DNA of 64,000 nt from Gossypium raimondii (lineage: Eukaryota > Streptophyta > Magnoliopsida > Malvales > Malvaceae). The notes beneath the pieces were generated by a model. That model saw only the letters and a list, made by a program, of their open reading frames with translations. It was not told where the DNA came from and made no database searches. This document shows, piece by piece, positions 23,875 to 64,000 of this stretch. Position 1 is the stretch's first letter; each line of letters opens with the position of its first letter. The stretch is taken from the NCBI RefSeq assembly GCF_025698545.1, contig NC_068570.1, forward strand, positions 55,075,924 through 55,139,923. The letters run 5' to 3'. Made by a program: the position numbers and the translations under genes.

Positions 23875-24316
23875 TTATGGTGGAATTTGCAATGGGTGCG
23901 AATTCTTCGGGTTCAAAGAGCAATGTCGGTCGGGAAACTAAGAAGGTCTGTATAAGATTGGATTTACCGCTAGATACGAATGACCTGAAGGTGGATGAAA
24001 ACAGACAGAATATATAGAGTTCGAGCATACCTAGGGTGTCGTACAAATCAACATTGCTGGAGGCTTCACTGGTTCCTGCGCAGAATGTGTCCATGGAGGA
24101 GGATTTTGCACTCATGGACAGCGATGTGATCACAAAGATGGTGGATGGTGTTCCATCGATAACATTCTCAAATCGTGTCCATGAGTACATTGAACGTAGG
24201 ATGACGAGAACAATCATCGTGAAATTGTTGGGAAGTAGAATAGCATTTAATGCTTTATTGAGTAGGGCTTCTTTGTTGTGGAATCCCAAGTACTCGATTC
24301 AAATGATAGACCTCGA
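23875..24316 (+). pseudogene. LINE ORF1 (DUF4283-type) remnant, upstream half
   Basis: This is a gag-like ORF1 fragment of a plant LINE. The segment around 24130-24310 contains RTIIVKLLGSRIAFNALL and WNPKYSIQMIDLD, the usual core of DUF4283 nucleic-acid-binding proteins. Upstream there are stop codons (for example at about 24016). The fragment is cut by the Copia element at the ctcga target site and continues at 29581. It is not a functional gene. Confidence 0.75.
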
Positions 24317-24504
24317 TATTAGAGAATAGAAGTAGTTAGTCAGTTAGTGAGGTTGTTACTCAATTTAGAAAGCCTTTATATACTGTACATTAAGAATTAA
24401 GAGGTAGGCAAATTTGAATAAACAACAAGAAGTTTATTCTATCATTTCACTCTCTGCTTCTTTTTGTTTGGATAGTTGTTTTCTTACTTTACCTAGTTCT
24501 TTCA
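24317..24504 (+). repeat. 5' LTR of the Copia element
   Basis: It starts tattagagaatagaag and ends tagttctttca. It should hold promoter and poly(A) signals; ctttatatactg near 24373 is a TATA-like candidate. Confidence 0.9.
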
Positions 24505-24518
24505 TGGTATCATTCGCC
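24505..24518 (+). other. Primer-binding site (tRNA-Met type)
   Basis: tggtatcattcgcc directly follows the LTR. Its first eight bases match the usual plant Copia initiator-tRNA-Met primer site, tggtatca. Confidence 0.8.
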
Positions 24519-24542
24519 AAGTGATTCTGGTCATTGCTTCTC

Positions 24543-27500: not shown

Positions 27501-29390
27501 GTACAAGGGGTGTCGTCTCAGCCTACTGATCCTGTATTAGATGTTAGTGTGGAGCAGCCCTAGTCTCATGATCCTTCAACTGATGTTAGGACTGGGTTGG
27601 GTAGTCTTCCAGCTCATGATTATTCAGCTAATGATGGAACTGAGTTGAGTAATCTTCCATCAGAGCATGGCTCGGGATTCTCCAGTGATACCAATGCTCT
27701 CTCTTCGTCTAATATGGGACTGTCTGCAGGTGTTTCGTCGGCATCTGATGGTCAGGTTAATAGGACAGCTGTGGGCAATACTCACCCAATGGTTACTCGC
27801 GCTAAAGCAGGGGTTTACAAGCGTAAGGTTTTAAGTGTTGAAGCTGTTGAACCGACTACAATTGAAGAAGCTCTGGCTACTGTTGAGTGGCGCACTGCTG
27901 CGCAAGATGAGTATAATGCTCTTATGCGTAATTCCACATGGGAGCTCGTTCCTGCTCCATATAATCGTAAGGTCATTGGGTGCAAATGGTTGTTCCGAAT
28001 CAAGAAGAATTCTGATGGCACTATTGCTCGATATAAGGCTCAATTAGTTGCAAAAGGTTACTCTCAAGTTCCGGGTTGTGATTTTAAGGAAACGTTTAGT
28101 CCAGTGGTCAAACCGGCTACTATCAGAGTTATTTTGTCTATTGCTGTGTCTAGGGGGTGGTCACTTCGACAAGTGGATGTGAATAATGCGTTTCTAAATG
28201 GTGACCTTGACACTGAAGTTTTTATGCATCAACCTCCCGGTTATGTTCAATATGGCTCAGATGGCAGACCTTTGGTGTGTCGCTTGAAGAAAGCGTTGTA
28301 TGGTCTTCGTCAGGCTCCTCGTGCCTGGTTTGAAAGGCTAAAAGGATTTCTAGTCTCCGTGGGGTTTGTAGTTTCAAAGTCTGATGCTTCCTTGTTTGTT
28401 CGAGTTGTACCAGCGTCAACATTATATGTGCTTGTGTACGTTGATGATATTATTATCACTGGAGATATGCCTTCTGTCATAGAGTGGTTTGTTAATTTAC
28501 TGAATAGTGAGTTCTCGCTTAAGGACATGGGTGATCTTCATTATTTTCTTGGGATAGAGGTTAATCGTTCTTCATCAGGTTGCCTTCATCTCTGTCAGAA
28601 GAAGTATATACGTGATATTTTTATACGTTGTTCGATGGAGAATGCAAAGAGTGTTCATACACCGATGGTTAGTTCCTCTGTTATGACTCGCGATGGTGGT
28701 GAGCGGCTACAGGATCCGACTGAATACAGGAGTCTTGCAGGAGCATTACAGTATGTCACTCTTACGCGGCCTGATGTTGTCTATGCTGTTAATCGAATAT
28801 GTCAATTTATGCATTGTCCTACTTCCATTCATATGACTGCCCTGAAGCGCATTTTGAGGTATTTAGGTGGTACGATTGATTTTGGAATTGTGTTTCGTCC
28901 ATCCACTAGTTTGTACTTAGTTGGATATGCTGATGCAAACTGGGGATTACATTTTGATGACTGGAGGTCTACTACTGGATACTGTGTTTATTTCGGACAT
29001 ACACCTGTGTCATGGTGTACGAAGAAACAACAGGTTGTTGCTCGGTCTACTGCTGAGGCAGAATACCGAAGTCTTGCTGCAGTTACTAGTGAGGTTACGT
29101 GGCTTTTGTCGCTACTTAAAGAATTACATGCTCGGTCTAATAGTGTTCCTCAAATTTGGTGTGATGAGTTCTGGGCGGTTGCGATTCTTTGCAAATCTCG
29201 TTCTTCATTCAAAGTTTAAGCATGTTGAGTTAGATTTATTTTTGTTCGTGAAAAGGTTCTTGATGGCACGGTTGTTGTTGGAGAAGTTCCGGTGCGTGTG
29301 ATCGTCGTCGATGTTCTCACTAAGCCCATTTCGTCATCGAGTTTTACTCGTTTTGAGTTTTCTACTGGTCTTGCTCAGAGAAGATGGATG
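24543..29390 (+). pseudogene. Copia gag-pol polyprotein, degenerate
   Basis: One long frame encodes, in order: a UBN2-type gag with a CCHC knuckle (CQICSQFGHVAQKC) near 25330; an aspartic protease with DSGAS near 26110; a GAG-pre-integrase motif (LWHNRLGHPS) near 26535; an integrase core from about 26700; and a reverse transcriptase from about 27930 with the YVDD box near 28440. RNase H follows from about 28920. The frame is broken by in-frame stops at 24894, 27012, 27228 and 27561, and by two single-base frameshifts near 29175 and 29250 in the RNase H region. The order protease, integrase, RT, RNase H defines Copia; it resembles RE1-type elements. It cannot make a full polyprotein. Confidence 0.9.
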
Positions 29391-29392
29391 AA

Positions 29393-29580
29393 TATTAGAG
29401 AATAGAAGTAGTTAGTCGAGTTAGTGAGGTTGTTACTCAATTGTAAAGCCTTTATATCTTGTACATTAAGAATTAAGAGGTAGGCAAATTTGAATAAACA
29501 ACAAGAAGTTTATTCTATCATTTCACTCTCTGCTTCTTTCTGTTTGGCTAGTTGTTTTCTTACTTTACCTAGTTCTTTCA
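29393..29580 (+). repeat. 3' LTR of the Copia element
   Basis: It is the same length as the 5' LTR and has the same ends. A purine-rich candidate polypurine tract, cagagaagatggatga, precedes it. Confidence 0.9.
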
Positions 29581-38641: not shown

Positions 38642-41600
38642 ATGGTATCAACAACATTAAGGCGAATTGTGTCGCCCTGCTGGAAGCCTTCGGTCGAGGG
38701 TGAAAATTCTAGTAGAGGTGGGGTTGGTAATGGTAGGGTTGATGGATTGTTGTGGTATGAAGACTCAGGAGAACACGTTGCGGGCGAGTTTTCGATGGCG
38801 GTAATTCAAGCAAACAATCTATTGGAAGATCACAGCCAACTCGAATCCGGTCCAATCAGCTCGTTTAAATCAGGTCCCCATGGGACATTTGTTGGAATCT
38901 ATGATGGTCATGGAGGTCCGGAAACCGCTAGGTTTATAAACAAACACCTTTTCAGCCATATCAAGAGTATGCAATTCTTTCTCCTCTTTGCTGAATCATA
39001 TTGGAATTTATTATTTTCTTGTTTAACAAGTGGTTTATCGTTTTATTTTCATTAGTTGAATCCGGAAACTTTGTATTTTTTTAGTTATAAGATATTTAGA
39101 GATGTATCATGTACCTTACATGACTAATGAGGATAAAGTATGCATGCTTGAGTGAGGCCGGAAACCCGGAACTTCACAAGTAAACAAGCATTTATATGTT
39201 TATTTCCTTCAAAAGTTGTAGAAGCAATTTTCGGAAGAAACGAAGATAGTTCGGTTCTTATACAGATTCAGGAACTTAGAACTTAGATATTGGAACTATA
39301 TGATCCTTAACTGCAAAGTTCTTACGAGTTTCGAAAGTCGTCATCAATATCTCATGGTTCAATGATTTACAGGCGATGACAAATGTCAAATTCGGACTTA
39401 TTCAGATCCTCGTTTCCTGCCTCCCTTAAAAACATCGTAGTTATTTCCTCCCCGAGCTTTAGTTGCCAATTTTTAATAGCTAACGCATATGTTTACTGAC
39501 TTGACAGCTTTTAATGGTGCAGAGTTTACAACTGAGAATCACGGAATGTCAGCCGATGTAATCAACAAAGCGTTTTTAGCTACCGAAGAAGATTTTCTTA
39601 ATCGTGTCAAGGAGCAGTTCGAAACTAAGCCACAAATCGCTTCTGTTGGTTCGTGTTGTTTGGTAGGAATAATTTGTAGTGGATTGCTTTACATTGCAAA
39701 TGCCGGAGATTCTCGAGTTGTTTTAGGAAGACTGGAGAAAGCCTTTAAAGAGGTCAAAGCAGTTCAGTTGTCATCCGAGCACAATGCAAGCTTCGAGTCC
39801 GTGCGGGAGGAGTTGCGATCGTTTCATCCCGATGATCCGCAGATTGTGGTCCTCAGGCACAACGTATGGCGTGTGAAGGGTATAATACAGGTATTTTTCG
39901 TGGCTTCGGGATATTATTTTCTTAGTAAAACTTCATATTGCTGTACAAATTCCAGCTTTCGTATAAAGGCATACGACCTATCGCAATCCCAAGCTTATCT
40001 AATTCCTTACCATCCAAGAAACAACCTTAAAACTTTTTATTTGATAATTATTTATTTGTATATTTGATACAGATTATATTGGAATTCGAAATTGTTCGAT
40101 GAAAACTTGTATGTATTGAATTGTGCTGCCGTGAGAACTAGTTTAGCTTTTGATCAATAATTGCCGTAAAAGCTTATTTTGGGATGTAGATGTATTTTAG
40201 CGACAATGTTGTGGATTTCTACAGAGTTCGAATTTCACCTTCTTAAGTGATCATTTTGTAGTCTTCATGGGAATGATTTCAGATTAAATAGCAACTTGGG
40301 TTATTTTGATGTATAAAATTTGATCTAGTCATGATTTTGAAAATCTAAATATGATTTATGACTCGAAGGAACTTTTACTTGAATGAGTGTGATCTACCAA
40401 TGTTACTCGGACTTAGGTGTGAGTATTGGACACATGTATGTTTTACTTTTTAATGTATTTGGAGGGTCATATCTCGTAGTCATGTTTGATATGTTTCAAA
40501 CATGGGTATCAGGTATGATACTTAAGTCGAAATAGCATAGTGATCTACACAAGAAGTATGTGCAAATTGATTGTTCCATTGACCCAACTTTTTTTATATG
40601 ATAGATTTCTAGGTCCATTGGTGATGCATATCTAAAGAAGCCAGAATTCAACAGAGAGCCTCTATTACCGAAGTTTAGAGTTCCAAATTCGTTCGAGAAG
40701 CCGATCCTACAAGCCGAGCCAGCAATATCAGTACAGAAACTGCGTCCTGAAGATCAGTTTCTTATATTCGCATCGGATGGTCTATGGGAACACCTTAGCA
40801 ATCAAGAGGCTGTTAACATTGTAAACACATGTCCACGCAATGTAAGTTCTCTTTTTGTGATTTTCTTTTCGGGTGTTTGTGTCGGGTATGAATATGTGTC
40901 ATGCACGGTATGTTTAAATTGTCATGTTTTTTTTTTTAATGTATTTTGAGGTTTTTGGAGGGTCAGGGACATATCCTCAATCTCATGTCCGGATAGGCAT
41001 CGGACATGGGTGCTAGACATCGGTGCTTCACAAAAATGAAAAATCTGAGCAATATAGATTTAATCTTTCTATGCATATAATGCCTTACAACTGAGAACAA
41101 CTTTCATGCTATCAAAACTAGCCAACCCTTCCTGGGTTCCTTTTGCTTAGTTCCCAATACGTGATAAATGAAGGAAAGGTGATCAGTTCGGGATGGCAAT
41201 GGGTTGGATCAGATTGAAATCTGACGGGTTTGAGTATTTTTCCAACTATAATGGTTGAGTAGTGTTGTCTTCCTTAAATGCCAACTATGAGTTTATCTCA
41301 TGCAACCCGGAAATGGTTTCTTGTCCTTCTAATCCTTGATTTTTAAAAGTTTTTGTTTTTGTTTGTTTTCCTCCACAAACATGAGTTATATACCGAGTTT
41401 GTAAAGAACTGATCTTTATATTGATGATCAAGTTGCCTATGGATAAACTTATACGAGACATCCATGCAGGGTATCGCAAGGAGACTCATAAAAGCTGCGC
41501 TTCGTGAAGCTGCAAAGAAGAGAGAAATGAGATACTCAGACTTGAAAAAGATTGACCGTGGCGTGCGGAGACATTTTCACGACGATATAACGGTCATCGT

Positions 41601-42767: not shown

Positions 42768-43249
42768 GGTATAATGATTTATTTGATCCTTCAATTTTAT
42801 AAAAAAAAGTCAATTTAGTTCTTTATTTAAATTTTTTGTCCTTTTAACAATTAAACTTGTAGTTTTGTCAAATCATTCCAAAATTGATGAAAAAATTAAT
42901 TTTTTACTTTGCTGATGTGGCATACATTTGGATTACCACATGGACGACATGTCAAGATTTAATTAATTTTTTAAATTTTAAAAATTCAAAAAAATTATAA
43001 TTTTAAAAAAAGTTAAAACTCATTAAAATTATTTAAAATCTATAAAAATATTTTTTTTAAATATTTTTCAAATTTTAAAAATTAATTATATCTTGACATG
43101 TTACTCACGTGGCAATCCACGTATATGCCACATCAACAAAATCAACAAATGTTAATTTTTCCATTCAAGGGCCAAATGAGGTGAAAAATTAAATGGAGAG
43201 TTAAAATGACTTCTTTTGTAAACTGGAGGGTCAAAAAAGTCATTATGCC
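42768..43249. mobile_element. Long palindromic fold-back element (MITE-like), 482 bp
   Basis: The left end, ggtataatgatttatttgatcc, and right end, gggtcaaaaaagtcattatgcc, are inverted copies. The inner arms also match: gatgtggcatacatttggatt against atccacgtatatgccacatc, and gacatgtcaagat against atcttgacatgt. The whole element can fold into one hairpin centred near 43010. It has no coding capacity. Confidence 0.8.
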
Positions 43250-43488: not shown

Positions 43489-45623
43489 ATGAACCAGAGA
43501 TCTTCGAACCTACTGGATGAAGCCTTAGGGCTAGACCAGGTCATCGAGCCATGGCCCCTAAGGGGTCGAGTAGTGGCAATAGAAGACCAAGTCGAGACCA
43601 GTGGGTCGTTCGTTCTTCACCATCTACTTAAACGCTCTCTTTCTCCAAATTCCTCTAATGTTACCATCTTCATCGCTTTCTCTCAGCCTTTCTCTCATTA
43701 CGATCGTATCCTTCGGAAACTGGTAAGTATCTTCCTCCATTGAAGCCTTACTTAATTTTCTCTCATTACGATCGTATCCTTCGGAAACTGGTTACCTTTT
43801 CTATGAGTTCATAAGATTTGCATTAGCACTTAAATGCATAAGTCTTGAATTAATTATATTACGGTTTCTGTTTGACACAAGGTATAAGTTCCAGGGTCCA
43901 ATTTTTCAGAGAGGATACGAAGTGAGGGATGAAAACCATGTTTTCTTGGTTATCATGCAGTGGGTTTTTTCTTGGAAATGTTGTTAATATTATTTGGTTT
44001 TGTTGTCCATTTGTTGAAATAGGGATGCAACTTGGTATCACAAAGGGATAACAGTAGATTCTTTTTCTTTGACATGCTTAAGTTGCAGTGTCCAGGTGAG
44101 AAAAAAAATCTGGTAAAATGATTCTTGCATAACTTTCTGCATGAATATTCTTTGTTTAAATGAGAAATCATTTAAATGCTGATGTTGATTCTGAATTTGG
44201 ACAAAGTATATGAGCTGAAATTTGACGGAACATATGTCTTCGATATAAGAAATTCTTTTGTTGCTTTATTTGTCTACATGTTTGTACTGTCAGATTTTAG
44301 GATTTCAAGACTGCAATAGATGGTTTTCCATTAACGTTGTTATTAATTTTACTTGTTTGCGCTAATGTTAAGTGTATAAAGATTAAATCACTCAGTTCTA
44401 TGATACATGGATTGAATTACATATTCGATCATAGTTCAGTAGTTCACGGACTGCATTAATTTATCTTTTTATGTTTGTGATTTCTGTTTATGGTCTTCTT
44501 TATTGTTTTATCTTGATGAGTTTTTCAATTTGTTTGATTAGATGGAGATGAAGGAATAACTCCTGAAGGTGGACTCATTGCATTGTATGGGAAAATACAT
44601 AAAACCATTTCAGCTTTGCCTGAGATTAGTTGGAAAAACGTTTCCATTATCATTGATGACTTATCTCTTATGGAGGTGGCTGCAAATGGCTCTTCAGATT
44701 ATGTCTTGGATTTCTTGCACTATTGCCGCACTTTAACATCTGAGTTTGTAAGATAATACCTTGTTTCCCCTCATTTTGTCTTATATTTTTCTTGAAATAT
44801 CCTTGTTCAATACTTGTGTCCAATGCCTATTCTGAAATGGATATGGGGATTTGATCCTCTAAGGGTTCTCCAAATACATAGAAAATGCGCCCCCCCCCCC
44901 CCGGCGAATATACTCATCAGAAACACATACTTATATCCGACACTCTCACTTGAATTTAAGTAGCATAAATTTTGTCTATCTTTGACCCTCTATTCTTAAA
45001 TTTTCTCTTGTTGAATCGTTGTTGTTAGGACTGTTCATTAATCACACTCAATCATGAAGATATTTATTCGAGTGAAGATAGGCCAACATTTTTTATACAA
45101 ATGGAGTACCTTGCAGACATTTTGATAAAGGCAGAGCCTTTGGCTACCGGTTTAGCAACCGATGTGCATGGACAGGTACCAAAATGCTATTCCTGTTTCA
45201 TTGTTGGATAATTGTGTCATTTCTATTATGTATTTATTTTTGTGGTTTACGGTTTAGAGTAACATAGACTACAATTGGAGATGCCATTGTTTCTTGAATA
45301 TAGACGTTCCTATAAAAATGGGAAATGTCTTGTCTGTCATTTAAACTATTGATTTACTATATTAGAACTTAGAAGTAGCGAATTAGGGTCTCATCGCAAG
45401 GTTTTTATCATGTTCAGTTGATGGTTTCGAGTAACAAGGTTATAATTGGAAATACAATTGTTTATTAAAAGTTCCTATAAAAATAGGAAATGTCCTACCT
45501 CTGAATGTGGTTTTTATCACGTTGCAGTTGACAGTTTCGAACAAGGGTCGGAACAAGGTTAGTAATTTCCATTTCAAGGTCAAGGAAAATGTTGTCGAAT
45601 GCTTCTACCCCGGAAGAAGCTGA
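43489..45623 (+). CDS. ELP6: Elongator complex protein 6
   Basis: This is a subunit of the Elp4-Elp5-Elp6 RecA-like ring of Elongator, which is needed for wobble-uridine modification of tRNA and linked to transcription. The five exons are 43489-43722, 44023-44095, 44542-44747, 45029-45175 and 45528-45623, giving 251 codons plus a stop, close to other plant ELP6 proteins. Recognisable parts are the start [15 protein letters not shown], the segment [54 protein letters not shown], and the C-terminus [17 protein letters not shown]. There is no P-loop, as expected for ELP6. The 5' splice site of intron 1 lies in a 68 bp-period duplication. Intron 3 has a fold-back repeat with a 13-base C run. Confidence 0.92.
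43689..43795 (+). repeat. Duplicated exon 1 end of ELP6
   Basis: tctcattacgatcgtatcct and the following ttcggaaactggt occur at 43693 and again at 43761 (period 68 bp). The first copy continues as gtaagt (used donor), the second as gttacc (poor donor). Confidence 0.88.
44781..44970. repeat. Fold-back repeat copy (ELP6 intron 3)
   Basis: It carries the family phrases ttcaatacttgtgtccaatg, gatcctctaagggttctcc and acacatacttatatccgac, and ends taagtagcataaattt. A C13 run sits at 44890-44902. Confidence 0.6.
45245..45505. repeat. Tandem duplication in ELP6 intron 4
   Basis: A segment with gagtaaca..ataattggaaat and gttcctataaaaatgggaaatg occurs at about 45255-45340 and again at about 45427-45500. 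The copies are about 170 bp apart. Confidence 0.65.
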
Positions 45624-46555
45624 GGTTGATGAAACCTGAAACTAGTAACAGGCTTGAAGGTTATGGTTTTTCATTCGATAGTCGTAGATGATGAAACAAA
45701 GGAAACCTTAGATGGTATTAGAGAAGATATCATGAAAAAGTTCCCTTTGTTGGGAAAGAAACTCAGCCCTTTTGTTGCATCTATTATTAATGTGCATCTG
45801 TTAGTTTTGCTGAAGATGTGGGTTCCGGCTTTCATTAATCCCTATTATGTTAGTGTATTTTATTGGGTTATAATCATGTCTAAGGTATTTTATATTTGTA
45901 TAAATTTTGATATATTTATAATTATGGTTGAGAATAAGAAAAGAGAAAATTGAAAAGCGGTTCAAACTATAGTGATCAATTCGATTTCGATTTAATTTGT
46001 ATTGAATTTGATTCAGTTTTATTTTGGTAATAATTAAAAACTTTTTAAAAATGAACCATGAGATATGGTATGATGGTTCTTTATCTCATCCTTGGGGGAT
46101 TCGATCTTTATTTAGGAGAATGGAGCATATTTTATGATTAGTTGTTTACTTTTTCGAAGAGGATTTTTGGCGAAGAGATTAGTCATTACTATTACTATTA
46201 ATGGTAGATATCCTGGTTTTGACTAAAAAATATTTTTAAAATATGATGAATAAATAATTATTTTAATGGTTAATAAAAGATAGGAGTATTTTGTAATATT
46301 TTTTAAAAAATTTATTAAAAATAGCAAAGGACTTAAATGATTAACAGTTGTAGGGAAGAAAAGGTAAATATAAATTTAGTATAATTTTAATTTATTTGTA
46401 GGTATTTTTTACGGGAATGGTAGAGTTATTAAGTGGGTATTTATTTAGAAATCCAACAAATTTTAAAAATTGATAAAAAATTTTGGACAAATTATTAATG
46501 TTAGTAATAAAGTATAAACGAGTTTTTTAATCCAGATAATACAAAAACAATAACT
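45624..46555. other. ELP6 3' region and AT-rich spacer
   Basis: The ELP6 3'UTR begins here. A 99-codon frame at 45654 does not resemble a protein I know and becomes hydrophobic low-complexity; I treat it as 3'UTR. The rest is AT-rich and featureless. Confidence 0.45.
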
Positions 46556-46559
46556 AAAT

Positions 46560-46745
46560 ATCAAAATGATATTCCCATGATATTATTTATCAAAATGATA
46601 CGAAGTAAATAGTGTTGAGGGGTGGAGGGTTGCACCACCATTTTTTTCCCACCAACAATTTCCCAGCATTAGGCTATATTTTGATTGAAAAAAATATATA
46701 TTTAAATGGTGGAGGGATAAGGGGTGGCGACACTTGTATTTTCTA
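46560..46745 (+). repeat. Left terminal inverted repeat of the MULE
   Basis: It matches the right end (53505-53702) in inverted orientation with many differences. Key shared words are aaatgata, aaaaatatatatttaaatgg and gtggaggg. Confidence 0.65.
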
Positions 46746-46784
46746 CTAATAAACATGTGAAAACTGGATTAAAATACAGGTTGG

Positions 46785-46893
46785 AGGGGTAGAGGGCATG
46801 TGTCAGGCGACACCCAGGTGGAGAGTATGTGTTAGGTGGCACCCAAGCCTAGAGTGGACGGGTGTTGTCAGGCAACACCGGGCCTTATTTAAA
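46785..46893 (+). promoter_or_regulatory. Subterminal repeats and TATA-like box of the MULE transposase
   Basis: Three related words occur in about 85 bp: tgtcaggcgacaccc, tgttaggtggcaccc and the palindrome-like ggtgttgtcaggcaacacc. They are followed by tatttaaa at 46886. This layout fits transposase-binding subterminal repeats next to the transposase promoter. Confidence 0.5.
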
Positions 46894-47055
46894 CGATGTT
46901 TTCTTGAACGGTTTAGCAGATAAGAAGAGAAGAGGAAAAAAAATTATAGAAGAAGAGAAAACAAAGAATCTGTAAGGTTAGTACAGTATGAATTGCATTT
47001 TTTTTCAAATAATTTATTGAGAAATTTATTTATTTTTATAGATTTAGTATTAAAG

Positions 47056-49751
47056 ATGGATAATCAGTTCTTCATATGCGTTTATTTCGATGGAGTAATT
47101 TTAACAACAATAGTTGGATGTATATTTGAATGTCGCCAACAAATAACAATGAGATTTAATATAAATGTGTCTGTTGATGATATGAAAGCAATGATCAGTG
47201 TAAAAATTGTTAGACATTGTGGGAGGAGAATCTTAAAACTATTCTACAAATTCTCAATTTTGACAAATTCCATCAAATTCATCGAGATGGAACTTTTTGA
47301 TAATGAAGACGTGGAGATAATGATCGCACTTTATTTCCAAAATCAGGGTGGCTACACTGAATCGATTCAGTTGTTTGCTGAGTTAGCTAATGTGGAGTCA
47401 GCTGAAAATTTCACTCCATTAAGTGAAGAACATGGAATTCAAGATCCGTGTATGGAGGCTCCGAGAGCGCCTGTTGATAGGCAATCGACTATACGTAGGT
47501 TCGACATCGATTTTAATACTCCACTTGCTTCTGAGAACCTTAACTCGGGTCCCCGTTTATAAATACATCTTGTGGTGATTAAGACTGATGCAAATGGTAA
47601 TGATGGATATGATAATAATGGTCCTTCTAATCACTAGGTTGAAGATTATAGTGATTTCGATCTAGACAATATCCCGAATGATATCAACAACGAAGGCGCG
47701 AATGACGATGAAAATGTTAACGCGTCTTCAGTCGGGAACTTAAGTCGAGGCATTATCATATGCAATAATCTTGGGGTCCACATGTCGGTTGTAGATCCCG
47801 ATACGGCTCATGCATCTGAGTTTTTAGAGTACCCCAATATACCATTTGCTCACCAATTGGCCGTAAATCCTGAATGTAAGGAGTTGTTTGTGGGCCAAAA
47901 TTTTGTAACCAAGGAAACTGCGTATTTGTCATTAAGCGGTATAACATGGATGTGTCGATTGACTACAAAGTCGTCATGTCTAAACCGACATTGTATATTG
48001 GAAAGTGTTGGAGGCCTACATAAGAGTGAAATTGATGGGTACGAGCCGCATTTATCCAGAGGTCACAAATGTGGGAGATCTGGAGATTTGTTGGGCCTCA
48101 CACATGCACTTCTACATGTATGACACAAGATTACCACAAACTTGATGCAAAAACTATCTGCAACTGCTACCAATGGTGAAGGACATGCCGACCATTCCTG
48201 TTTCGGTACTAATTGTAAAATGCAAGAACGATTCCAATACCGAGTGTCATACCAGAAAGCATGGATTGCTAAACAAATTACCATAGAGTAGTTTTACGGA
48301 GATTGAGATCCGTCATACAATGAACTACAGGGGTGGATAGTCACTATGCGGGAGTATGTGGCAGGGACTGTCATTGATTTACAAACATGAACTTATTATG
48401 GCCCAAATGATCAACTACAACTGAGAAGAAAAATTTTTCACTAGTTGTTCTAGACGTTCGATCCATGTGTGCGAGTCTTTCCCCACTGCGAACCACTTAT
48501 GCAAGTTGATGGAACCTAGCTATACATAAAATATATGCAGGTCCTACTTATTGCGATTGCTCAAGACAGGAATTGGAACTAGCTCTCGATAGCGTTTGTC
48601 ATTGTGGAGTCGGAGAACATGGAATCATGAGAATTCTTCTTGATGAACTTGCGGACATATGTTGTTGGAGAAAATAATATTTGCATCATATCTTGTAGAT
48701 CGAAGAGAATAATTGTCGCAATTAGGAATTTCGGTGGTTCGTGGAGATTCGTTTATAGCATCCGACACATCGCCTCACATTGCCTCTAACTTCTACTGAA
48801 ACTATAAAAATGTAGACTGGCGAAAACAAGAAGTGAACATGGGTAATTTTTAGTTTCAACATATTTTTTAAATGTTCTTAATACTTCCACAAATTAATTT
48901 GAAAATGTAATGTGTCTTTTTAAAATACATACACAGTGTACGAGCTAGAACAACAACATTTCAGGTAACGATTAACTAGGCTTTAGGGTGATATGTACTG
49001 TGAAATGACTACTACTTTTCGAGAGTGGTTGGGTACCATGAAGTCTTGGCAATGAACTCAAAGTTTCGATGATGGGTCTTGATATGCTCATATAACCACA
49101 AACCTGGTAAAGACGGTTTACTCTGTCTTGAAGAGAACACGACATCTACTAATTTCATCTATTTTTCTAGCTACGCTCTATATGCTAGCAACCTTAATGC
49201 CAATAATGAGGCTGAAACAAGTAATGGATACGAACCATCAGAGAGAGATGTCGATGAATGTAGAAATATATTATTGACAGTTAGAGACTTTCCAAATTAT
49301 AAAGTCCATTGGCCGTGGACCCAGTATCCCACTTAGGTCCTACAGAGTTGATCTCTGAAACAGACGGTGCAATTGCAGGAAGTTCCAAACACTTCATTAC
49401 CATTGTACGCATATCGTTGCATCTTGTGCTCACACATTGATCAATGTTGAACAATATATCGATAAGGTGTACACTCTGGAACATACATTGCGTATTTGGG
49501 GAAACGAGTTCCCTGTCTTGTGTGATTTGTCTACATGGAAAGTGCCTTCGCTGACTTTCAAGCTTGCCCCAGACAATGGGTTACGTAAGAAGCTAAAAGG
49601 TCACCCGCAAGTCACTAGGATCCATGGTGAAATGGACATAAGAGAGAAAACCAACTTAAAACTTTGTGGTTTGTGTAGAACAACTAGTCATAATCGGGCT
49701 AAATGCCAGTATCGAACTTCCCATATTGGACAATCGACTCGATTGAGTTGA
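47056..49751 (+). pseudogene. MULE (MURA-type) transposase, degenerate
   Basis: It starts with a recognisable N-terminal domain (FFICVYFDGVILTT, MKAMISVKIVRHCGRRI). A DNA-binding segment lies near 48000-48250 and the catalytic core remnants near 48480-48830. After a probable intron (about 48842-48939), a SWIM zinc finger (CNCRKFQTLHYHCTHI) lies near 49345-49395 and a final CCHC knuckle (CGLCRTTSHNRAKC) near 49668-49710. The longest open piece is the first, to the stop at 47560. Everything after is scattered over all three frames with many stops, so no active enzyme can be made. The domain order is that of plant Mutator-like transposases. Confidence 0.85.
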
Positions 49752-50163
49752 ATATAAATTAATGTATTCCATGTTTAGACTTTTATTAATTTTTTATTAT
49801 GATGGAATTTTCATATTTATATTTTAGGAACAACACAGCTATATTACATCTTTCAACACCACTTAAACATTATATTGTTTTCAAAAAAGTCAAAATTTTA
49901 TTTTGTTGGAAAAAGTCTGATTTGAAAACGGTTTTCTTGCATAGTAGAAAGTTGAAATTTTGAAAAGCAACCTGATTTTTTATATTTATAGCAATAAACC
50001 TAAATCGAATTTGTACATACGTTTTTGGATAAACAGATCCTTGATGTTTTTCGGTTTTAAACCAAATGATATTCTCCGCAATTTTCATACCATAAGCTAC
50101 TTCGAATGTGGATTCGAACAAATTGAATTAAAGCACAGAACTAAAAAAAAAATTCTTTTAAGG
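49752..50163. other. Non-coding spacer inside the MULE
   Basis: This is AT-rich sequence between the transposase remnant and the LTR-like insertion. Short frames on both strands have no family resemblance. Confidence 0.45.
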
Positions 50164-52022
50164 TGAAAATGAAAATTCTCTCTTTTTTAATAGAAACTAA
50201 TAGAATTATTATTCTGAAAAATATGTTTATAAGTTGAGAATAAACTATCTATCTTTCGACAGAATAACAATCTCTCTAAAATTTGTAAATAGCTTTATCG
50301 ATATCATCTATTTATAGGAAGATAAGGTAGAACCCTTGTAGAGTTGTAGAAGTTTATTTCCACTAGAAAAATAATATTCTAGTTTGCCTAGGATATAGGG
50401 GGTGGCAACCCTAGTTAATGACACTAGGGTTTTGTCGTCCCACCTCCTTACATGATGGGTTTTAGGCCTCTCTTACATCGGGTCCAATTACGAGTACTTC
50501 CTAGATCTTTTTGACCTGATACTTTGTAATATGATAGAACTTGATTCAGTTTTTCTATTTCTCAAAATAAAATTTAATATCTACATATTAAATAATTTTA
50601 TCATCCAAATTTTATCTCGATAAAATTTTAATGATTTACCTCCAGTAAAATTAAAATTCATTCAATATGTTACAACTCAACATGTTTACTATGACCGAAT
50701 GATTTATTTTCATTTTCAAGCTTCAAAACAGTCCAAAAACATAAACTCATTATTCCATAATTTTTTAATTAATCCTATATAGGCTTGTAAGCTTTCATTT
50801 TCATTTCTATTTCTATTTTTGGGTACCTACATTCATTTCCAAATGATTCCATTTCAAGAAAACTATAATCATTCCTGAATGTTTCCCATTTATCTTTTTC
50901 TATTCATTCTATTCATTTTTATTCAAACACGCAATTTATTTCTGGTTTTAATAAGTTATCTGAGGGACTGATTGGACATATGTGGTTGAGGCTCAAATGA
51001 TGTATGATCAAGTTTTGGCTTTTCACCTATTAATTAAAAACTCATTTAGTCACGAAGTCATTCCACTATAGTATCGTAACTAAGTTCTCCCTAACGACAT
51101 ACCATTACGAAAACAACTATTTAGTGCTCGTCCAATGACATTGTTATAAATGTGTTACCCTCATAGGATATCCTTAGTCTCTTTGGGATAATATTCATTC
51201 TCCTAATATATGATCATATTTTATCTTATGGTAATCATTATATCTTCCTTCATGAAAAGTCAATCACTATCAAATAGTGATCAAGTCATCCATCACAAAG
51301 ATGGACGATCCGTGACCACATTTACTTTTCATCAACCATGCAATGCCAATAAAATGACATCATTTACCCATTCATTAAGATATGAATTCCATTATTGTGA
51401 ATGTTGCTACATACTACAAAAGTCGTACACCCAACGCACTAGCTTTCGGTTTCTTATCTATTTAAACTCAGGCTTTTACTTACATCAAAGTGTACAAGTC
51501 ACACATATATAGTCCGCCATCCACTCATGATTTAGGTACGTCACACTATAAACGTCACAAGTAAATAAATTCATAAACAGATTCAGAATCTATTTTGTTT
51601 GGGTTTTGTCCGATGTACTGACAGTCTAGTTAGTCACATTTATGTCTCTATCTTCTGGGAGTCATCCACTTCGATGTCCAAGATAAGACATTTCTCCAAT
51701 TGGACATGATGGACGACATGTTAGTCTTTCAATCATTTTGTTCATTTTCTATTAGACTAATGGCATGTTTAAGTTCGTCTACTAATAAAATTTGTCTTTC
51801 TGTACTACGATCCGACCACGTAATACCGCTTTGTATTGCTTAAACATTTAGACAACCAATGAGCAACATTTGCTTCTATTTTGCTTTGCATGCAAAAAAC
51901 ATGTGAGGATAATATATAAATTATTAATATAATTCATGAATAATTTTATTAACCAATCTATTTGAAAAAAATTACAAGTGTATTTAGACGAAAGTACTAC
52001 ACTCAGGGCACCAGATCCAACA
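50164..52022 (-). mobile_element. LTR-like insertion inside the MULE, ~1.86 kb
   Basis: Read on the minus strand it starts at 52022 with tgttggatctggtgccctga, a typical plant LTR start, and shows no coding domains over about 1.8 kb. The other end is probably near 50164 (ending ttttca on minus), but no target duplication supports this. It may be a solo LTR or a non-autonomous element. Confidence 0.5.
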
Positions 52023-52280
52023 TATTAAAAAAAAATTTAAGTCAAAAAAATTATATGTTTCCTATTCATAATCATTAAAAATTACAAAAGATTTAAATGA
52101 TTAGTTTAGTATAATTTAATTAATATAAACTTGAAATTTTAAATTACAATTACAAACCACATCCAATAAATATAATGCAACACATGCTAAAATTGATGGT
52201 TTGATGGTGTGCTTCGAAGGATAAACCGTTGTGGTGTCCGATGTTGGCTTTGAGGGTGCTCGCGACGGTTATTGTTACAC
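52023..52280. other. Spacer between LTR-like insertion and PMD remnant
   Basis: This is AT-rich and short, with nothing recognised. Confidence 0.4.
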
Positions 52281-53030
52281 TCACTCGGAACATCGTTCAT
52301 AACATCCATCGAGAACCTTGAGGTATGGTAAACATACTCGAGAAATCGTATGTCCCAAAGGTTTACCTAATAGGGGTGGAATATTGGGTGGTAATGGGCT
52401 GAAGATATCAAACATCATCAATGATCTTGAATTCGAATTATCAAAACTGGAACTGGGAATCTCCGACTGATCTGCGTAGCCTGACGAGCCCAAAAAATAA
52501 TTACCTACCCCCAAGTCCGGATGATAAGAACTACCCACAGATTCTGTATAAGACTGCTTAGGTTCAGGTGCCAGTTCCTGTTCAAGTGCAGGAGGCGGTT
52601 GTGGCAGGCAGTGGGAGAAGTGCCTTAATCGTTGCATGTATGGAGGGACTAGCATCGATTGCCCACCAAATAAATATGATTTTCCATTTTTAATGTACCA
52701 ATGTTGGTACTCCTCTGAGGGCCATAAATCAAAAGCAAAATCCATCCGAGGTTTCCACCCCATCCGATCGTTTACTTGTTTCCCAATTCTTGATGCTTTA
52801 ATGTCCAATTCTTTGCTTGTTCCCTCCTTCTTTTAATTTTGTGGACATCCCCCAAACTCTATGGAATATCCGAAATACATTGTATGCACCTGAATTGTCG
52901 TAGTACTCAATCCTCGTTGTACCACTCGACTGTTGAGAAATTCAATAGGGGTGCTTTCATGCACCACAAGTGTGAGTGGATGTGAGCAAATAGGGGAATA
53001 ACAGTCGCAACGTCCAGAAGGACTGTGACA
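52281..53030 (-). pseudogene. Plant mobile domain (PMD, MAIN/MAIL-like) gene remnant
   Basis: On the minus strand, the region 53030-52840 keeps the pattern of the PMD C-terminus (a WCMKAPLLNF-like start, FSTVEWYN, VLRQFRCIQ). It has stops in frame and then runs into an open frame of 175 codons (52808-52281). That frame continues with RMGWKPRMDFAFDLW, YQHWYIKNGKSYLFGG and a Pro/Ser-rich tail typical of PMD proteins. The main PMD domain upstream is missing or unrecognisable. PMD proteins (Arabidopsis MAIN, MAIL1) act in the nucleus in transposon silencing and development, and related copies occur in transposons. It is a relic. Confidence 0.7.
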
Positions 53031-53504
53031 TCTAGATAAACTGCATAATTAATAACATGGTTATAGTAACACGAGTCAAATAACATAAATAAAATAATTA
53101 CAAATAATAAAAATTACAAAAAGATAAATAATAACGTAATTACAAAAAAAAAATGCACCTTTAAACCTTAATCTACTGCTCCCCTCTCTTTCCAAAGTCA
53201 CAAAATAAGACAAATAGTTAGAATAACAAAACAAACAAATTAATAATATTTGCAAAATATTAATTAAAAATATACCTTTAAAGCATAAAAGGTAAAATAA
53301 CCTAAATCTTTCTTCTCTTCTTTTCTTTCTTTTTTTCTTTCAATAGCCATGGGACCAAGGTCTTTATGTGGGGTAAAAATTACCCCTGAAAAGGCCTAAA
53401 AATTGGGTTGATTGACTGAAAATCAGTCATAAATTTTTTTCCTGTCATCATCAGGTCACGTATAAACCTTTAACCTTTAACCTGTATATAACCCAATATA
53501 ATTT
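53031..53504. other. Right subterminal region of the MULE
   Basis: This holds AT-rich sequence and C/T runs (53300-53345), the former upstream part of the PMD gene. The fragment caatagccatgggaccaagg at about 53340 may be its lost start region. I see no intact frame. Confidence 0.4.
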
Positions 53505-53702
53505 TCATACAGGTGCTGCCGTATGCCTACCCTCCACCACTAAAAATATATTTTTAAGTTCATAACGGTCAAATGATTGGCTCAAAAAATTAGGGTATTG
53601 GCTCAAAAAATTAGGGTGGTGTTGCCACCTTCTCAGGCACCACCACCAGTCACTGTTGCGTTCATATCATTTCTGTAATTAATCAGATTGGGATATCATT
53701 TA
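53505..53702 (-). repeat. Right terminal inverted repeat of the MULE
   Basis: It is an inverted match to 46560-46745. It contains a 21 bp tandem duplication (ggctcaaaaaattagggt twice at 53579-53622) absent from the left end. Confidence 0.65.
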
Positions 53703-54755
53703 AGATATATATTTTATAATATTAGGGTTAAAAGGCTATAAACGGATAGTGATGCAAGCTCTTACTGTAAATGCCATTAAAGTTTTAACAATTCAATCAG
53801 TTTTTTTTTGTCTTAAAAATTTAATTAAAATTTAAATATTTAGGGCTAAAATGATAAAAGAAGAAGAAGAAGAAAGAAGGTCAAAGTGACAAAATTGGTA
53901 ATTAATGATATGGGCTATTTAACGTTGTTATGCTTTATCTTAACTAAATGTTTAAGGTTTAAAAATATTTTATAAAAATGATATAAACATTCCAACAATA
54001 ATATTTAGTTATAGTTTTTAATTTTGATTTTAAAATTTTTGTACTCGATGTTGAATTGATTCGTAACACTAATTCAATAAGTAATTTAACATTGGTATTA
54101 AAAAGATGTAGATATGAATTCAAATTTTCATTTCTATAATATCAAAATGTTTTATTTCAAATGAGTGAAAACCATATAAAAGTTTATAAAAGATATTTGT
54201 TAAATTCTAAACTTTTTTATTGACCATTAATTCAGTTAACCTTGTTGATGTTGTAAAAAACTTGGATTTGAACACATATTATCTTCTGAAATTAAAAAAA
54301 AATCAAAACATAATTCATTTTTCATTAAATCATTTTGCTATTTTTAAAATATTAAAATATCCATTAAAATGTTAAATTTTATATAATTTTTTAAAATTGA
54401 ATACTTTTAAAATTATTAAACTTTTTATACCATACTTAGAATTGCTCAAATCTCTCTCCCCAACTATTCAATAGAAAAATAAACATACTTTAACGTGTTC
54501 AAATTCACATCCTCCTATACTAACAATAATATTGATGTTAATCAAGTTAAAACTCAATAGACAAAAAATATTAAAGGTTAAGAATTAATATCTCGATTGG
54601 CATGGACATTATTGTCAATGCAAGAGGATGTGATTCGAGTGCGCTGAAGCGCATTATTCTCCTATTTATGGGTTTGGGAAGGACTATGGGTAGTTCTAGA
54701 CATTATCTCAAAAAGAGCGATCAAAGAAATCTTTTCAAAAAAATTAATATCTATA
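53703..54755. other. AT-rich spacer
   Basis: This contains a GAA run (about 53858-53875) followed by ggtcaaagtgacaaaattgg, similar to the sequence after the GAA run at 14024. A segment near 54590-54680 (gattggcatggacattattg) resembles 3' parts of plant repeats. No gene is seen. Confidence 0.4.
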
Positions 54756-55084
54756 TAAATTTAAGACCATTTTACCAATAAATGCCTATTTCCAACTTTA
54801 TTTACGGAAATGAGCTACTTTTTTCATTATTTACCGAAATAGGCCGAAAACACCAAAACGTGTCCACGTAGGAGCTATTAGGGGTACATTCTAGCAAAGC
54901 GCGTCCACATCAGCACGTTTTGTGCTGACATGGTAAAATTGCTCCCTCAGGGACGCATTTTACTGGAATTTCCTCTAAAAACGCTTCTACGTGGATGCAT
55001 TTTGGTATTTTTGACCCATTTCGGTAGATAATGAAAAAAGTGGCTTATTTCCATAAATGAAGTTGGAAAATGGTCTAAATTTAA
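54756..55084. mobile_element. Fold-back MITE-like element, ~329 bp
   Basis: The left arm (aaatttaagaccattttacc, then ccaactttatttacggaaat, then gtgtccacgtaggagc) is matched in inverted order by the right arm (gcttctacgtggatgcat, then ccataaatgaagttgg, then aaaatggtctaaattt). Arms are over 100 bp each around a GC-richer loop. It lies upstream of UPF2. Confidence 0.8.
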
Positions 55085-56547
55085 AATATTTTAAACACAA
55101 TAATCATATAATAAAATAGCTGCATGTATTCCTTAAAAAAAAAAAAAAAGCTGTACGTATTAGGCGTACCAAAAACGCATCATTCTCAATCTATAAGGAA
55201 AAAGAAATAAAGGTTCCCAAACCCTAAAATTGGGTCCCACAAAGTTCCAATACGGACTCAAGTTCGACCCGATATCCGATTTCGAGCCCCTTGGCTTTGA
55301 AGAGCAAAGCTTCACTTTATTTTTTATTTTTATTTTCTCGGTTCTTCTTCAAAAAACAATTCGGGTTGGCTTCCAGAAAAAATTTCTTCCAAGGCCTCAT
55401 ACACACCTCCCTTCCCTTCCTCTCTTTTTTTCTTTACTTTTATCATTCTTAGCTTCTTCCCCGAATTTTCAGGTCAAACCCTAACTCTCCCTCTTTCCAT
55501 CTCTCTAAGATCCACGGAAATTTTAACCTTCTTTTTTTTTTAAAAAAAAAAATCAGATTGAATTTTTGCATATGTCTATGATTTGAGTGAACTACGAGCC
55601 TATGATTTGAATTTTTTTAACGATTTAGTATTATCATCATTACTATGAAATGCTTTTAATTGGTCCACTGAAGTTGTAAGTGAGAAGATTTGGAACTTTT
55701 AAGATAGGTTATAGGAGTAATTATGTGAATTTTCTTTTCTTCTCTTTGTTTTTAGTTATCAGTTGACAATTTATTTATCTTTCTTGTTTGGAAAGAAGTT
55801 ATAAGGAAAGGAAGGATAAGAATTTTGATTTCATTTTTAGTTGTCCGAGATTAGGAAAGTGGTAAAAAGGGGGAACTGTGGTTTTAGAAATCTGATTATA
55901 AAGCATTTGTTCTGTATTCTTTCTATGATTTAGCGCATGTATTTTGAATGGTTAGGAATTGGTTTTCTTCGTGTTTACATGCTGTTAATTGTTGGTGAAG
56001 GAGGACTAGTGCTTCAGTATCTTGGGTCCTTTTTAGAGGATTTCTGGTTCTTTTAGTTTTCCCTAAGGTTTTTCTGTATTTGAATGCCTTTGGAGGATCA
56101 TATCTGCATGCCAACGTCTGGATATGATTTGGACACGGGTGTTGGACATAGATATTTCAAGTAAAATGAGGAGTCAGAGCAACACAGATTTACCAAGTAG
56201 TAATTGAAACTAAATTGTGTTATGGGGTTGAATACCTTGTTTGTGCAACATAGCTAGGGGGTACTAATGCTAGCTGAGGTTGTGATATTTAACATGGAGG
56301 AGAGTTATTTATATCGGTACTACCTCAAAATGCATTACTCTGGAAAACTTAGAAGAAGATCTTGTTAGTTGGTATTTTTGTTTTTTTTTTCCATGCTATG
56401 TTCGAGTATTGCTTCTTTAACTATTGTTATAACACTTTTTGAAGGTTCTGTTTAGCTCCTTATTATTCATAATTTTAGTGTGTGTTTCTTGATTATTGAT
56501 AAATCAGTTTATTTTTACAGGGATTATTGTGGCTATAAGTATATGAG
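55085..56547 (+). promoter_or_regulatory. UPF2 promoter, 5' leader and leader intron
   Basis: A telo-box-like aaaccctaaaattggg at 55219 and C/T-rich sequence mark the probable leader (about 55200-55470). A leader intron probably runs from about 55472 (cag|gtcaaa) or later to the acceptor tttttacag ending at 56520. A partial fold-back repeat copy lies inside it at 56072-56190. Confidence 0.5.
56072..56190. repeat. Fold-back repeat copy, right half (UPF2 leader intron)
   Basis: It contains tttggaggatcatatctgc, gatttggacacgggtgttgg and gaggagtcagagcaacacag. The left end is not recognisable. Confidence 0.55.
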
Positions 56548-61400: not shown

Positions 61401-63800
61401 CTGGGGATGATGCTTCATCAACATCCGGAAAAGAGTCTTCAAACCTTGAAGCTATATGGGATGATGACGACACTAGAGCTTTCTATGAATGCTTACCTGA
61501 TCTTAGGTATGTTGTGGCCATTATTCAATTAGTTAAAAAGAGACTTCATTAATAGGGCCCTTCATTGATGGTGTTTTTGGAAATCAAAGATGTATTTGCT
61601 TGCTGTTAAGAGCATTGTGTACATGTTCTTCACAGAGCATTTGTCCCAGCAGTATTATTGGGAGAGTCTGAGTCCAAAGCAAGCGAGCAAACGTCAAAGG
61701 CACAAGAGCAACCAACTGTAAGTAGATCAAAATTTTGGACATTATTGTTAGCTCAATTAGGGTCAATTCAAAGCCAACAATTCCTTCGTGCTTTCATCTG
61801 TGGTTTTGCACTGCCAATGATACATTATCCTTTTCTGTTTTACATATTAAGTTTTTGGTTGAGTTCAAGCATCGGATACTGCTGCTTTGCTCTGACATGG
61901 AATTGCTAAAAAAGCTAAATTACAGAAATAAAAATAAGAAAAGTGAAGCATTTTGATCTGGCAAACCACAAAGGCTGAATGAATCATTTCTTAAATCCTT
62001 AGCATCCGATCTTATGCCAGAAACCTATTACTTATTTTCTTTTTTGGTGGCATGGTAGGGCAGAGAGAGTAATTTTCTGGACTTATTGATTGTTTGATTT
62101 GGTGTTTGTGTTCTGACAGAGCTGGTTTAAGACCCCTAAATAGTCCTCTCTATTTAATGTTTATCTAAATTGTTTTTTGGTTTACCTTTTAGGAATCCTC
62201 TTCTGAAGCTGATCAAAGTACACCAGTTGCACAAGATGCCGTGGACATTTCTGCAGACTCTGGCACTCTGCAAGAAGGGAAGAGTGTAGAGAAAGGGAAG
62301 GATAAAGAAGAAAAGGATAAGGAAAAAACCAAAGATCCTGACAAGGAGAAAGGGAAAGAGAAAGAGAAAGAGAAAGAGAAAGAGAAAGAAAAGGATACAG
62401 ATAAAAAAGGAGAAAATGAAAAGGAGAAGCTCAAAGGTAGTGAAGGGACAAATTTGGATGCTCTACTGCAAAGACTCCCAGGTTGTGTGAGTCGTGACCT
62501 TATTGATCAACTGACGGTAATTAAACCTCTGTTTTCAGTCCTACTGTTGAATGCCACTTTTCGATGGGGTTTTATGCAAGTCTAGAAGATTATTGAATTG
62601 TATTTAAAATTTCAGGTGGAGTTCTGTTATTTGAATTCAAAATCAAATCGGAAAAGACTTGTGAGAGCTTTGTTTAATGTACCAAGGACTTCTTTGGAGT
62701 TGCTTCCATACTACTCACGCATGGTTGCAACATTGTCAACTTGTATGAAGGATGTTCCCTCTATGCTCTTGCAGATGTTGGAGGAAGAGTTCAACTTTCT
62801 AATCAATAAAAAGGTTTGCTTCCTTACAAGTCCCCTCGTTCTCTTTGTAACTGTCTTCCATCTCTACATTCATTTCCTTTTTGCTGGTAACTGATTTCTT
62901 AAAATTGAAATTAACTGCAGGATCAGATGAACATTGAAACAAAGATCAGGAATATTAGGTTTATTGGAGAACTTTGTAAGTTCAAAATTTCATCACCTGG
63001 CCTTGTCTTCAGTTGTCTGAAGGTATGTGCAAAGCAGCTAACTGATAAATGTTGAATTCTATCCAGTTTTTGTTCCTGTGATGATACTTCCATCTCATGG
63101 GAGTTTATGAGCTTTTTGAAACAAATAGAATATAGAAATGAGGAGCAGTCAGTTTGTTGCTCTCATTTTCATTGTCTTATAATTTGTATGCCATAGATGC
63201 AAACCTGTTTCATATGCTTTCTTATTCTAATATTCTTTTTGTAACAGACTTGTTTAGATGATTTCACTCATCATAACATTGATGTCGCTTGCAATCTTCT
63301 TGAGACGTGCGGTCGTTTTCTGTATCGTTCTCCTGAAACTACCATAAGAATGGCTAACATGTTGGAGATCTTGATGCGCTTGAAAAATGTAAAAAATTTG
63401 GATCCTCGGCACAGCACACTTGTGGAAAATGCTTACTACCTATGCAAACCACCTGAAAGATCTGCACGGGTCTCCAAAGTCCGTCCTCCATTGCACCAGG
63501 TATTATTTGCTTTTTCTGTCAAATATTCTACTTGTTTTGGTGTTAAACCATTTTACTCAGTTATTTCAAACTTTTTTGCAGTACATTAGGAAATTGCTAT
63601 TTACAGATCTTGATAAGTCTTCCATTGAGCATGTGCTGAGGCAACTTCGTAAATTACCATGGATTGAATGTGAATCATATCTCTTAAAGTGCTTCATGAA
63701 GGTTCACAAGGGGAAATATGGCCAAATTCACTTGATTGCTTCTCTCACTGCTGGTTTGAGTCGCTATCATGATGAATTTGCTGTTGCTGTTGTTGATGAG
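56548..63800 (+). CDS. UPF2: Regulator of nonsense transcripts UPF2 (partial, continues past window)
   Basis: This encodes the bridging factor of nonsense-mediated mRNA decay, linking UPF1 and UPF3 on exon-junction complexes. Thirteen exons are visible: 56548-56610, 56754-56841, 57628-57830, 58887-59231, 59393-59497, 59673-59800, 61333-61506, 61636-61717, 62193-62516, 62616-62813, 62921-63022, 63248-63499 and 63582-63800. They give 761 codons in one open frame; plant UPF2 is about 1,200 aa, so the third MIF4G domain and the UPF1-binding C-terminus lie beyond the window. The first MIF4G domain is at about residues 50-270. An acidic linker follows, then a Lys/Glu repeat at about 428-470, then the second MIF4G domain from about 480 (SNRKRLVRALFNVPRTSLELLPYYSR). 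The start (MDNQEDES) has G at -3 and +4. A second ATG five bases upstream is out of frame. Confidence 0.93.
58362..58442. repeat. (ACATAT)n-type microsatellite in UPF2 intron
   Basis: About 80 bp of atacatatacatatac units drift to acacatacacat at the right end. It lies in intron 3 of UPF2. Confidence 0.9.
61271..61294. repeat. (CT)n microsatellite in UPF2 intron 6
   Basis: About 12 CT units lie 40 bp before the exon 7 acceptor, so they form part of its polypyrimidine-rich region. Confidence 0.85.
62290..62415 (+). repeat. GAAAGA/GAGAAA coding microsatellite in UPF2
   Basis: Repeated gagaaa units encode an alternating Lys-Glu run (KEKEKEKEKEKE) within exon 9, between the two MIF4G domains. 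Length variation in steps of six bases would keep the frame. Confidence 0.85.
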
Positions 63801-64000
63801 GTTTGCTTCTTGAATTTAGAACTAGTTCTTCTTGAGTTGATTTTTATTTTTCCTATATCTATGTTATCTGGGTTTTTAAAGGAATCACTACTGTATATCA
63901 TTGTGTTCTTATTTGTATGGTCAACTTTGTATTCCCTTAGCATTCACAATTTGTTTTGATTCTGTGTTGATATGGTGAGAAATGCTGGTGTGTAACTTAT
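63801..64000 (+). other. Start of the next UPF2 intron, cut by the window end
   Basis: The donor gtttgc follows VVDE at 63800, and no acceptor is reached before 64000. The sequence is T-rich, as in the other introns. Confidence 0.8.

Follow-up and report, generated by a model that had tools for sequence, protein, structure and literature searches.

A decayed Mutator-like element of Gossypium raimondii and its probable family-level pairing of a MURA transposase gene with a convergent plant-mobile-domain gene

Introduction

In the maize element MuDR, the genes mudrA and mudrB are convergent. The present study concerns a decayed Mutator-like element (MULE) of Gossypium raimondii, in which the remnant of a MURA-type transposase gene lies tail to tail with the remnant of a gene for the plant mobile domain (PMD). 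The element is located in a 64,000-nucleotide stretch of contig NC_068570.1 (positions 55,075,924 to 55,139,923, assembly GCF_025698545.1), which was analysed as a whole and is called the window below.

PMD genes have been described in several transposon contexts. Table 1 of Dupeyron et al. 2019 (PMC6446971) lists PMD "in most, often antisense" for MULE group 49 (MUDRAVI2) and "in antisense for most of them" for group 50 (MUDR), which includes Gossypium raimondii elements, and the introduction of the same paper describes integration as apparently dependent on mudrB. For grass and Amborella MULEs, Ikeda et al. 2017 (PMC5418596) reported fusions of PMD to the transposase, argued that these PMDs were captured from host PMD-C genes, placed PMD-A clades in Gypsy elements, and conjectured that PMD serves MULEs as a defence against silencing; the idea was restated in a 2021 review (PMC8616336). 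An association with transposable elements has been stated for the majority of PMDs (Nicolau et al. 2020, PMC7156037). The statements drawn on here from PMC7156037 and PMC5418596 connect host PMD proteins with silencing and gene expression and not with recombination. The VANC proteins of VANDAL elements are described as binding noncoding tandem repeats with family-specific motifs (PMC10398659).

The window element was likened to groups 49 and 50 by their described features. A SWIM zinc finger, long inverted repeats, 9-bp duplications and a mostly antisense PMD (PMC6446971) have their counterparts here, and PMD is antisense to the transposase both in the window and in its relatives; the window copy differs in that it is dead, has lost most of its PMD and contains a solo long terminal repeat (LTR). 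The grass and Amborella elements (PMC5418596) likewise bear PMD on MULEs, with an anti-silencing role proposed there, but their PMD is fused to the transposase, whereas it is a separate, opposite gene here. The likeness to MuDR consists of a transposase accompanied by a second gene (PMC6446971). The VANDAL/VANC system (PMC10398659) likewise has an extra gene beside the transposase, and its noncoding tandem arrays of short family-specific motifs are a possible further likeness; the arrays reported below are known from sequence alone, and binding by PMD is a conjecture.

Since antisense PMD in plant MULEs has already been tabulated, the window copy is ordinary and its layout is not unusual, contrary to an initial annotation of the window that had singled it out as close to an unusual biological system. 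What is added here is evidence for PMD as a kept second gene, plus a candidate target. The window most probably holds a dead copy from a MULE family with two resident tail-to-tail genes, MURA transposase and PMD; we assign this reading a probability of roughly 0.85, a figure that applies to the anatomy and to PMD as a resident second gene, and not to the mechanism. PMD is regarded as resident because of its convergent recurrence, an omega (dN/dS) below the neutral control, and its co-divergence with the transposase.

Results

The decayed MULE spans 46522-53736 (7,215 bp) and has diverged inverted ends. Alignment of 46552-46716 with the reverse complement of 53530-53714 gave a score of 46, whereas 500 dinucleotide shuffles of one side only averaged 22.5 and did not exceed 36, so that the terminal inverted repeats proposed in the initial annotation are real. 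The terminal motif of the relatives placed the true ends about 34 bp outward of the coordinates given there. A blind duplication search at those inner coordinates returned AT-rich near-matches only. At the revised borders, TATAAACGA and TATAAACGG were identical at 8/9 positions, for which a chance probability of 0.0028 was calculated with 1-bp slack; the true figure is higher because the pair was noticed by eye before the test. An exact 9-bp duplication, read by eye from the alignment of ends and then located, was present in three of the five relatives with delimited ends (L055, L058, and L059) and not in L050 and L057; in several relatives, both genes are thus enclosed by shared inverted ends and 9-bp duplications. 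These lengths lie within the 8-11 bp range used to recognize MULE target duplications. The inverted-repeat ends of L049, L051, L052, L053, L054, and L056 were left unfixed.

Domain analysis of the plus-strand gene, two stretches of which hold 2 and 8 in-frame stops, was conducted on a read-through in which frames picked by eye were joined. This read-through matched PF10551 at 28.0 bits (cut-off 27.6), in keeping with the MURA-type transposase remnant first suggested, and SWIM at 16.4 bits, under the cut-off; single open frames of the window gave a weak SWIM match (13.3 bits) and no PMD match in Pfam. Relatives exceeded the cut-offs for DBD_Tnp_Mut (28.6 bits in L057 and 39.5 bits in L051) and SWIM (28.1 bits in L057), while the transposase piece of L054 gave no Pfam match. 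On the minus strand, one frame with X written at stops matched the PMD profile PF10536 at 21.2-21.8 bits, the best match having an E-value of 1.2e-4 over profile positions 258-313 of 347; an NCBIfam search with this piece returned nothing. The PMD identity of this gene is settled by its relatives, since L057 scored 54.8 bits (exon 2) and 85.0 bits (exon 1 piece), both over the cut-off. The window piece is 46-61% identical to 28 other PMD loci and retains approximately the last quarter of the profile (258-346); no match to PMD exon 1 was found in 46401-53900. The evidence for both gene identities is modest from the window alone and certain with the relatives, and the copy is dead, as initially stated, given the stops in the transposase and the frameshift, stops and truncation of PMD.

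Recurrence was assessed in the window's own genome (750.8 Mb, 281 contigs), each gene being used as a separate query, and matches were located on contigs C1-C13. The PMD query gave 2,288 first-look candidates, the best 150 of which were scored, yielding 30 loci including two that are the window's own; the transposase query gave 6,538, with the best 52 scored. The 28 non-window PMD loci were selected on PMD score alone, with flanks of about 1.5 kb, and a transposase piece was present in the flank of 25/28 at E 1e-4 and 26/28 at E 1e-3 (an exon-1 piece in L017 and L032). All of these pieces were convergent with PMD except the best-scoring one of L036, a divergent far-side piece; the exon-2 piece beside the PMD of L036 is convergent. 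From the transposase side, the 10-kb loci examined were the 11 lowest-ranked of 51 other transposase loci. A convergent PMD was found in nine of them, and in 11/11 with better queries. L050 and L052, which had been considered as PMD-free copies, were rejected as such when these queries found a PMD piece in each (exon 1 in L050, the tail in L052). Among shorter transposase loci, 8/10 had a convergent PMD. In total, 43 distinct relatives carry both genes, convergent in each, after removal of two double counts (L055 = L035, L056 = L030). This bears out the proposal that the element family carried its own PMD gene, and copies lacking PMD, which had been named as evidence to the contrary, did not emerge at the 10-kb loci. 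The coding match ends of the two genes are 57-929 bp apart in the relatives, which does not agree with the suggested antisense overlap at the 3' ends; the untranslated ends may overlap.

A second MULE lineage, named lineage B, showed the same arrangement. In L007 (positions 2700-4215), a transposase N-terminus of another MULE lineage was read by eye downstream of a PMD of a different type. Because a Pfam search with this piece gave no match, its identity rests on resemblance and place. The L007 transposase query gave 2,916 candidates, and the best 150 were scored; these places are 86-100% identical, so that lineage B is at least partly young. A lineage B transposase lay within 8 kb of 17/117 PMD places (0.37 expected by chance) and of 54/125 places of its own PMD type (0.40 expected), and every pair was convergent (17/17 and 54/54); each proportion is a minimum, since scoring covered only a portion of either family. 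Two of the 117 PMD places lay near one of the 51 first-lineage transposases, both convergently.

Selection on the coding sequences was evaluated with codons anchored on L057 by tblastn. For PMD exon 2, 39 elements provided 722 pairs of 80 codons or more; 58 of these were saturated, 62 fell outside the dS bins and 602 fell within them; L001-L003, L005-L008, two double counts and rows of fewer than 100 codons were left out. Omega was below 1 in 602/602 binned pairs, which are not 602 independent tests because pairs share branches. Median omega for PMD exon 2 was 0.57, 0.53, 0.46, and 0.36 for dS of 0.1-0.3, 0.3-0.6, 0.6-1, and 1-2, and that of transposase exon 2 was 0.45, 0.38, 0.34, and 0.25 in the same bins. 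Neutrally simulated copies put through the same pipeline yielded 1.00, 0.87, and 0.65 for the three lowest bins, the fourth being without a control, and the PMD medians were lower in every bin having one. The low omega at higher dS is partly bias, since neutral copies also fall to 0.87 and 0.65. While the family was mobile, both genes appear to have been under protein-level constraint.

The divergence of the two genes was also correlated. Exon-2 distances of PMD and transposase gave a Mantel r of 0.61 over 28 elements, with 0/2000 permutations as high, and comparison of PMD with transposase exon 1 gave r = 0.94 (1/2000 permutations), over nine elements only; the transposase parts compared against each other gave r = 0.89 over 19 elements. 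These results bear on the possibility that PMD is a captured host gene fragment travelling as a passenger in the style of Pack-MULEs. MULEs do capture host genes, and the PMDs of grass and Amborella MULEs have been argued to be captured from host PMD-C (PMC5418596). However, an omega under the neutral control, co-divergence with the transposase and an orientation fixed in two lineages speak against a passenger, as does a break in the PMD profile match at about 195 to 237, which occurs at the same place in many copies and looks like a shared intron. A passenger PMD is accordingly considered very unlikely.

The initial annotation had also raised the question of whether transposon PMDs group together. 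Of the 41 PMDs placed in a tree, the 37 that belong to the window type formed one side of a branch with support of 98/92, separate from type B (three rows) and from the host-like L005; this grouping is partly built in because rows were found by similarity to the window PMD. L001-L004 were omitted owing to poor alignment, four rows including that of the window had fewer than half of the columns filled, and the tree program warned that L005 and L006-L008 join through long branches, which leaves their relation unsure.

Separately, L001-L003 and L005 had PMD matches without stops and no transposase match in their flanks, and are candidates for the host PMD genes of the species. No solved structure was retrieved when the PMD stretch of L001 was used as a query.

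A solo LTR overlooked by the initial annotation lies between the two genes (Table 1). Its strand was assigned as minus because TGTTGG..CCATCA reads on that strand, and no second copy was found in 45500-55000 or in the window. Without the LTR and one TATTA, the MULE would measure about 4,987 bp, compared to 4,996 bp between the inverted repeats of the relative L050. The insertion is relevant to the view that the window PMD remnant came in separately, for example inside a Gypsy element with a PMD, and landed next to an unrelated MULE. This MULE has indeed received an LTR element, and PMD-A has been placed in Gypsy elements (PMC5418596). Nevertheless, the LTR has its own TATTA duplication and adjoins PMD without enclosing it, the relatives have the same gene order with the genes less than 1 kb apart, and the window PMD is placed among MULE PMDs in the tree, so that a separate insertion is scarcely credible.

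Table 1. Positions of the parts of the element and its borders within the window
Feature	Position	Strand	Remarks
Left target-site duplication TATAAACGA	46513..46521		8/9 with right copy
Left terminal inverted repeat	46522..46716	+	Outer bases similar to terminal motif of relatives
Two subterminal motif copies (AGGCGACACCC, AGGTGGCACCC)	46805..46844	+	29 bp apart; upstream of transposase
MURA-type transposase pseudogene	47056..49751	+	Several frames, many stops; PF10551 and SWIM on frame-joined read-through
TATTA duplication of nested LTR, left copy	49795..49799		
Solo LTR	49800..52022	-	2,223 bp; TGATGG..CCAACA on + strand; between the two genes
TATTA duplication of nested LTR, right copy	52023..52027		
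PMD pseudogene, last exon only	52284..53002	-	PMD end (profile 258-346 of 347) and C-terminal tail; frameshift, stops
Right terminal inverted repeat	53530..53736	-	Alignment to left end
Right target-site duplication TATAAACGG	53737..53745		8/9 with left copy

Short motif sites with AGGCGGCACC-, TGGCGGCACC- or AGGCGCCA-type cores were observed upstream of the transposase, often in tandem, mostly about 230-800 bp from the transposase start and, in L052 and L059, immediately before a TATA-like sequence as judged by eye. The strict motif gave 41 sites in 22 transposase leaders, 14/22 having at least one (0.6 expected; 0 in 46 kb of the window), and the relaxed motif gave 86 sites with 17/22 leaders represented (shuffles predict 1.25, and the 46-kb control contains 9); these enrichment figures are inflated because the motif was chosen from the same leaders. 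The leaders were cut to a fixed length, and some sites, as in L052, lie outside the element. A tandem-repeat finder revealed a 27-bp period in 8/22 leaders (L042, L043, L045, L052, L054, L055, L057, and L059), a figure obtained without a shuffled control; these arrays have CpG-rich cores and also occur near the other element end where the ends are known. Sites were present within about 300 bp of both ends in 5/5 relatives with delimited ends, besides scattered interior matches. In the window copy, two sites lie at distances of 283 and 312 bp from the left end of the element, and a further two, weaker, are close to the right end. On the PMD side, seven sites were found in 34 rows, a count that includes three rows of other PMD types and the 3,505-bp leader of L017, a coordinate artefact holding four of the seven; the PMD-side arrays are closer to the element end. 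Motif type tracked transposase lineage, with a dN of 0.067 within and 0.165 between types (0/5000 permutations) for 13 elements whose types were assigned by eye, a match expected from shared descent alone.

The arrays resemble the target arrays of VANC and could be considered a candidate target for PMD. In the literature searched, which was mostly non-subscription and was covered by few queries near the topic, neither a report of such arrays in PMD-bearing MULEs nor one of selection on MULE PMDs was met.

Other features of the window were also recorded. A Copia retrotransposon at 24316-29580 has direct terminal repeats of about 190 bp that are 95.8% identical (24316-24504, 29392-29580), and gag, integrase and reverse transcriptase domains. 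A 1,038-amino-acid open frame at 19206-22322 contains leucine-rich repeats, and frames with PRP3 (5929-7002), PP2C (39480-40064), and MIF4G (63393-63956) domains are probably pieces of ordinary host genes. An inverted pair at 44785-44884 and 56069-56167, 72% identical over 100 bp, flanks the MULE at a distance, and two self-complementary stretches of about 280 bp each (42887-43164 and 54789-55069) resemble hairpins of miniature inverted-repeat transposable elements.

Discussion

Several observations weigh against a family with two resident genes, or against a PMD acting on silencing. The window PMD piece scores under the Pfam cut-off (gathering score 34.9). L019 and L031, two of the 37 window-type rows of the tree, have no transposase in their flanks of about 1.5 kb, although the locus coordinates place a convergent transposase about 3.5 kb from the PMD of L031; likewise, L042 and L043 show no PMD, with flanks that reach only the expected PMD 3' end. 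The selection test compares non-independent pairs by a method that is crude where dS is high, and its values also include post-insertion decay. PMD evolves faster than the transposase, with codon-position difference rates of 0.368/0.317/0.453 compared to 0.232/0.194/0.329, which fits an arms race and equally a weaker constraint. Finally, the arrays fall within the inverted repeats or close to them, a region in which the transposase would be expected to bind.

An alternative is that PMD assists transposition in the place of mudrB and is needed for integration or end handling instead of anti-silencing. MuDR, too, has a second gene next to its transposase gene, integration apparently depends on this mudrB (PMC6446971), and the occurrence of arrays near both ends of all five delimited relatives is what end-binding sites would predict. 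The likeness to mudrB is, however, one of position, and the host PMD proteins have been linked to silencing and gene expression, not to recombination, in the sources cited above. A helper role is rather doubtful on this balance.

Our tentative preference, held at somewhat below even odds, is that PMD keeps the promoters and ends of the element open against host silencing. The PMD protein would benefit the element in trans from the position that mudrB has in maize MuDR, and it could do so by disturbing the host MAIN/MAIL PMD pathway or by making use of it, perhaps via the arrays near both ends. The window copy would later have lost the first three quarters of its PMD, gained stops, and taken in an LTR retrotransposon that was then reduced to a solo LTR. 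A role in countering or hijacking silencing, which the initial annotation had also put forward, is a published guess (PMC5418596; PMC8616336). A bolder extension seems distinctly unlikely to us: transposon PMDs would be sequence-specific anti-silencing factors, the PMD of each lineage recognising its own end array (GGCGCC, GGCGGCACC or GGCGACACC types) and opening promoters, as an independent counterpart of VANC, with host MAIN/MAIL descended from, or drawn into, the resulting arms race.

A constrained MULE PMD that travels with its transposase would mean that the element uses PMD. Host PMD proteins act in transposon silencing, and the end arrays may provide a concrete target for the role of transposon-borne PMDs.

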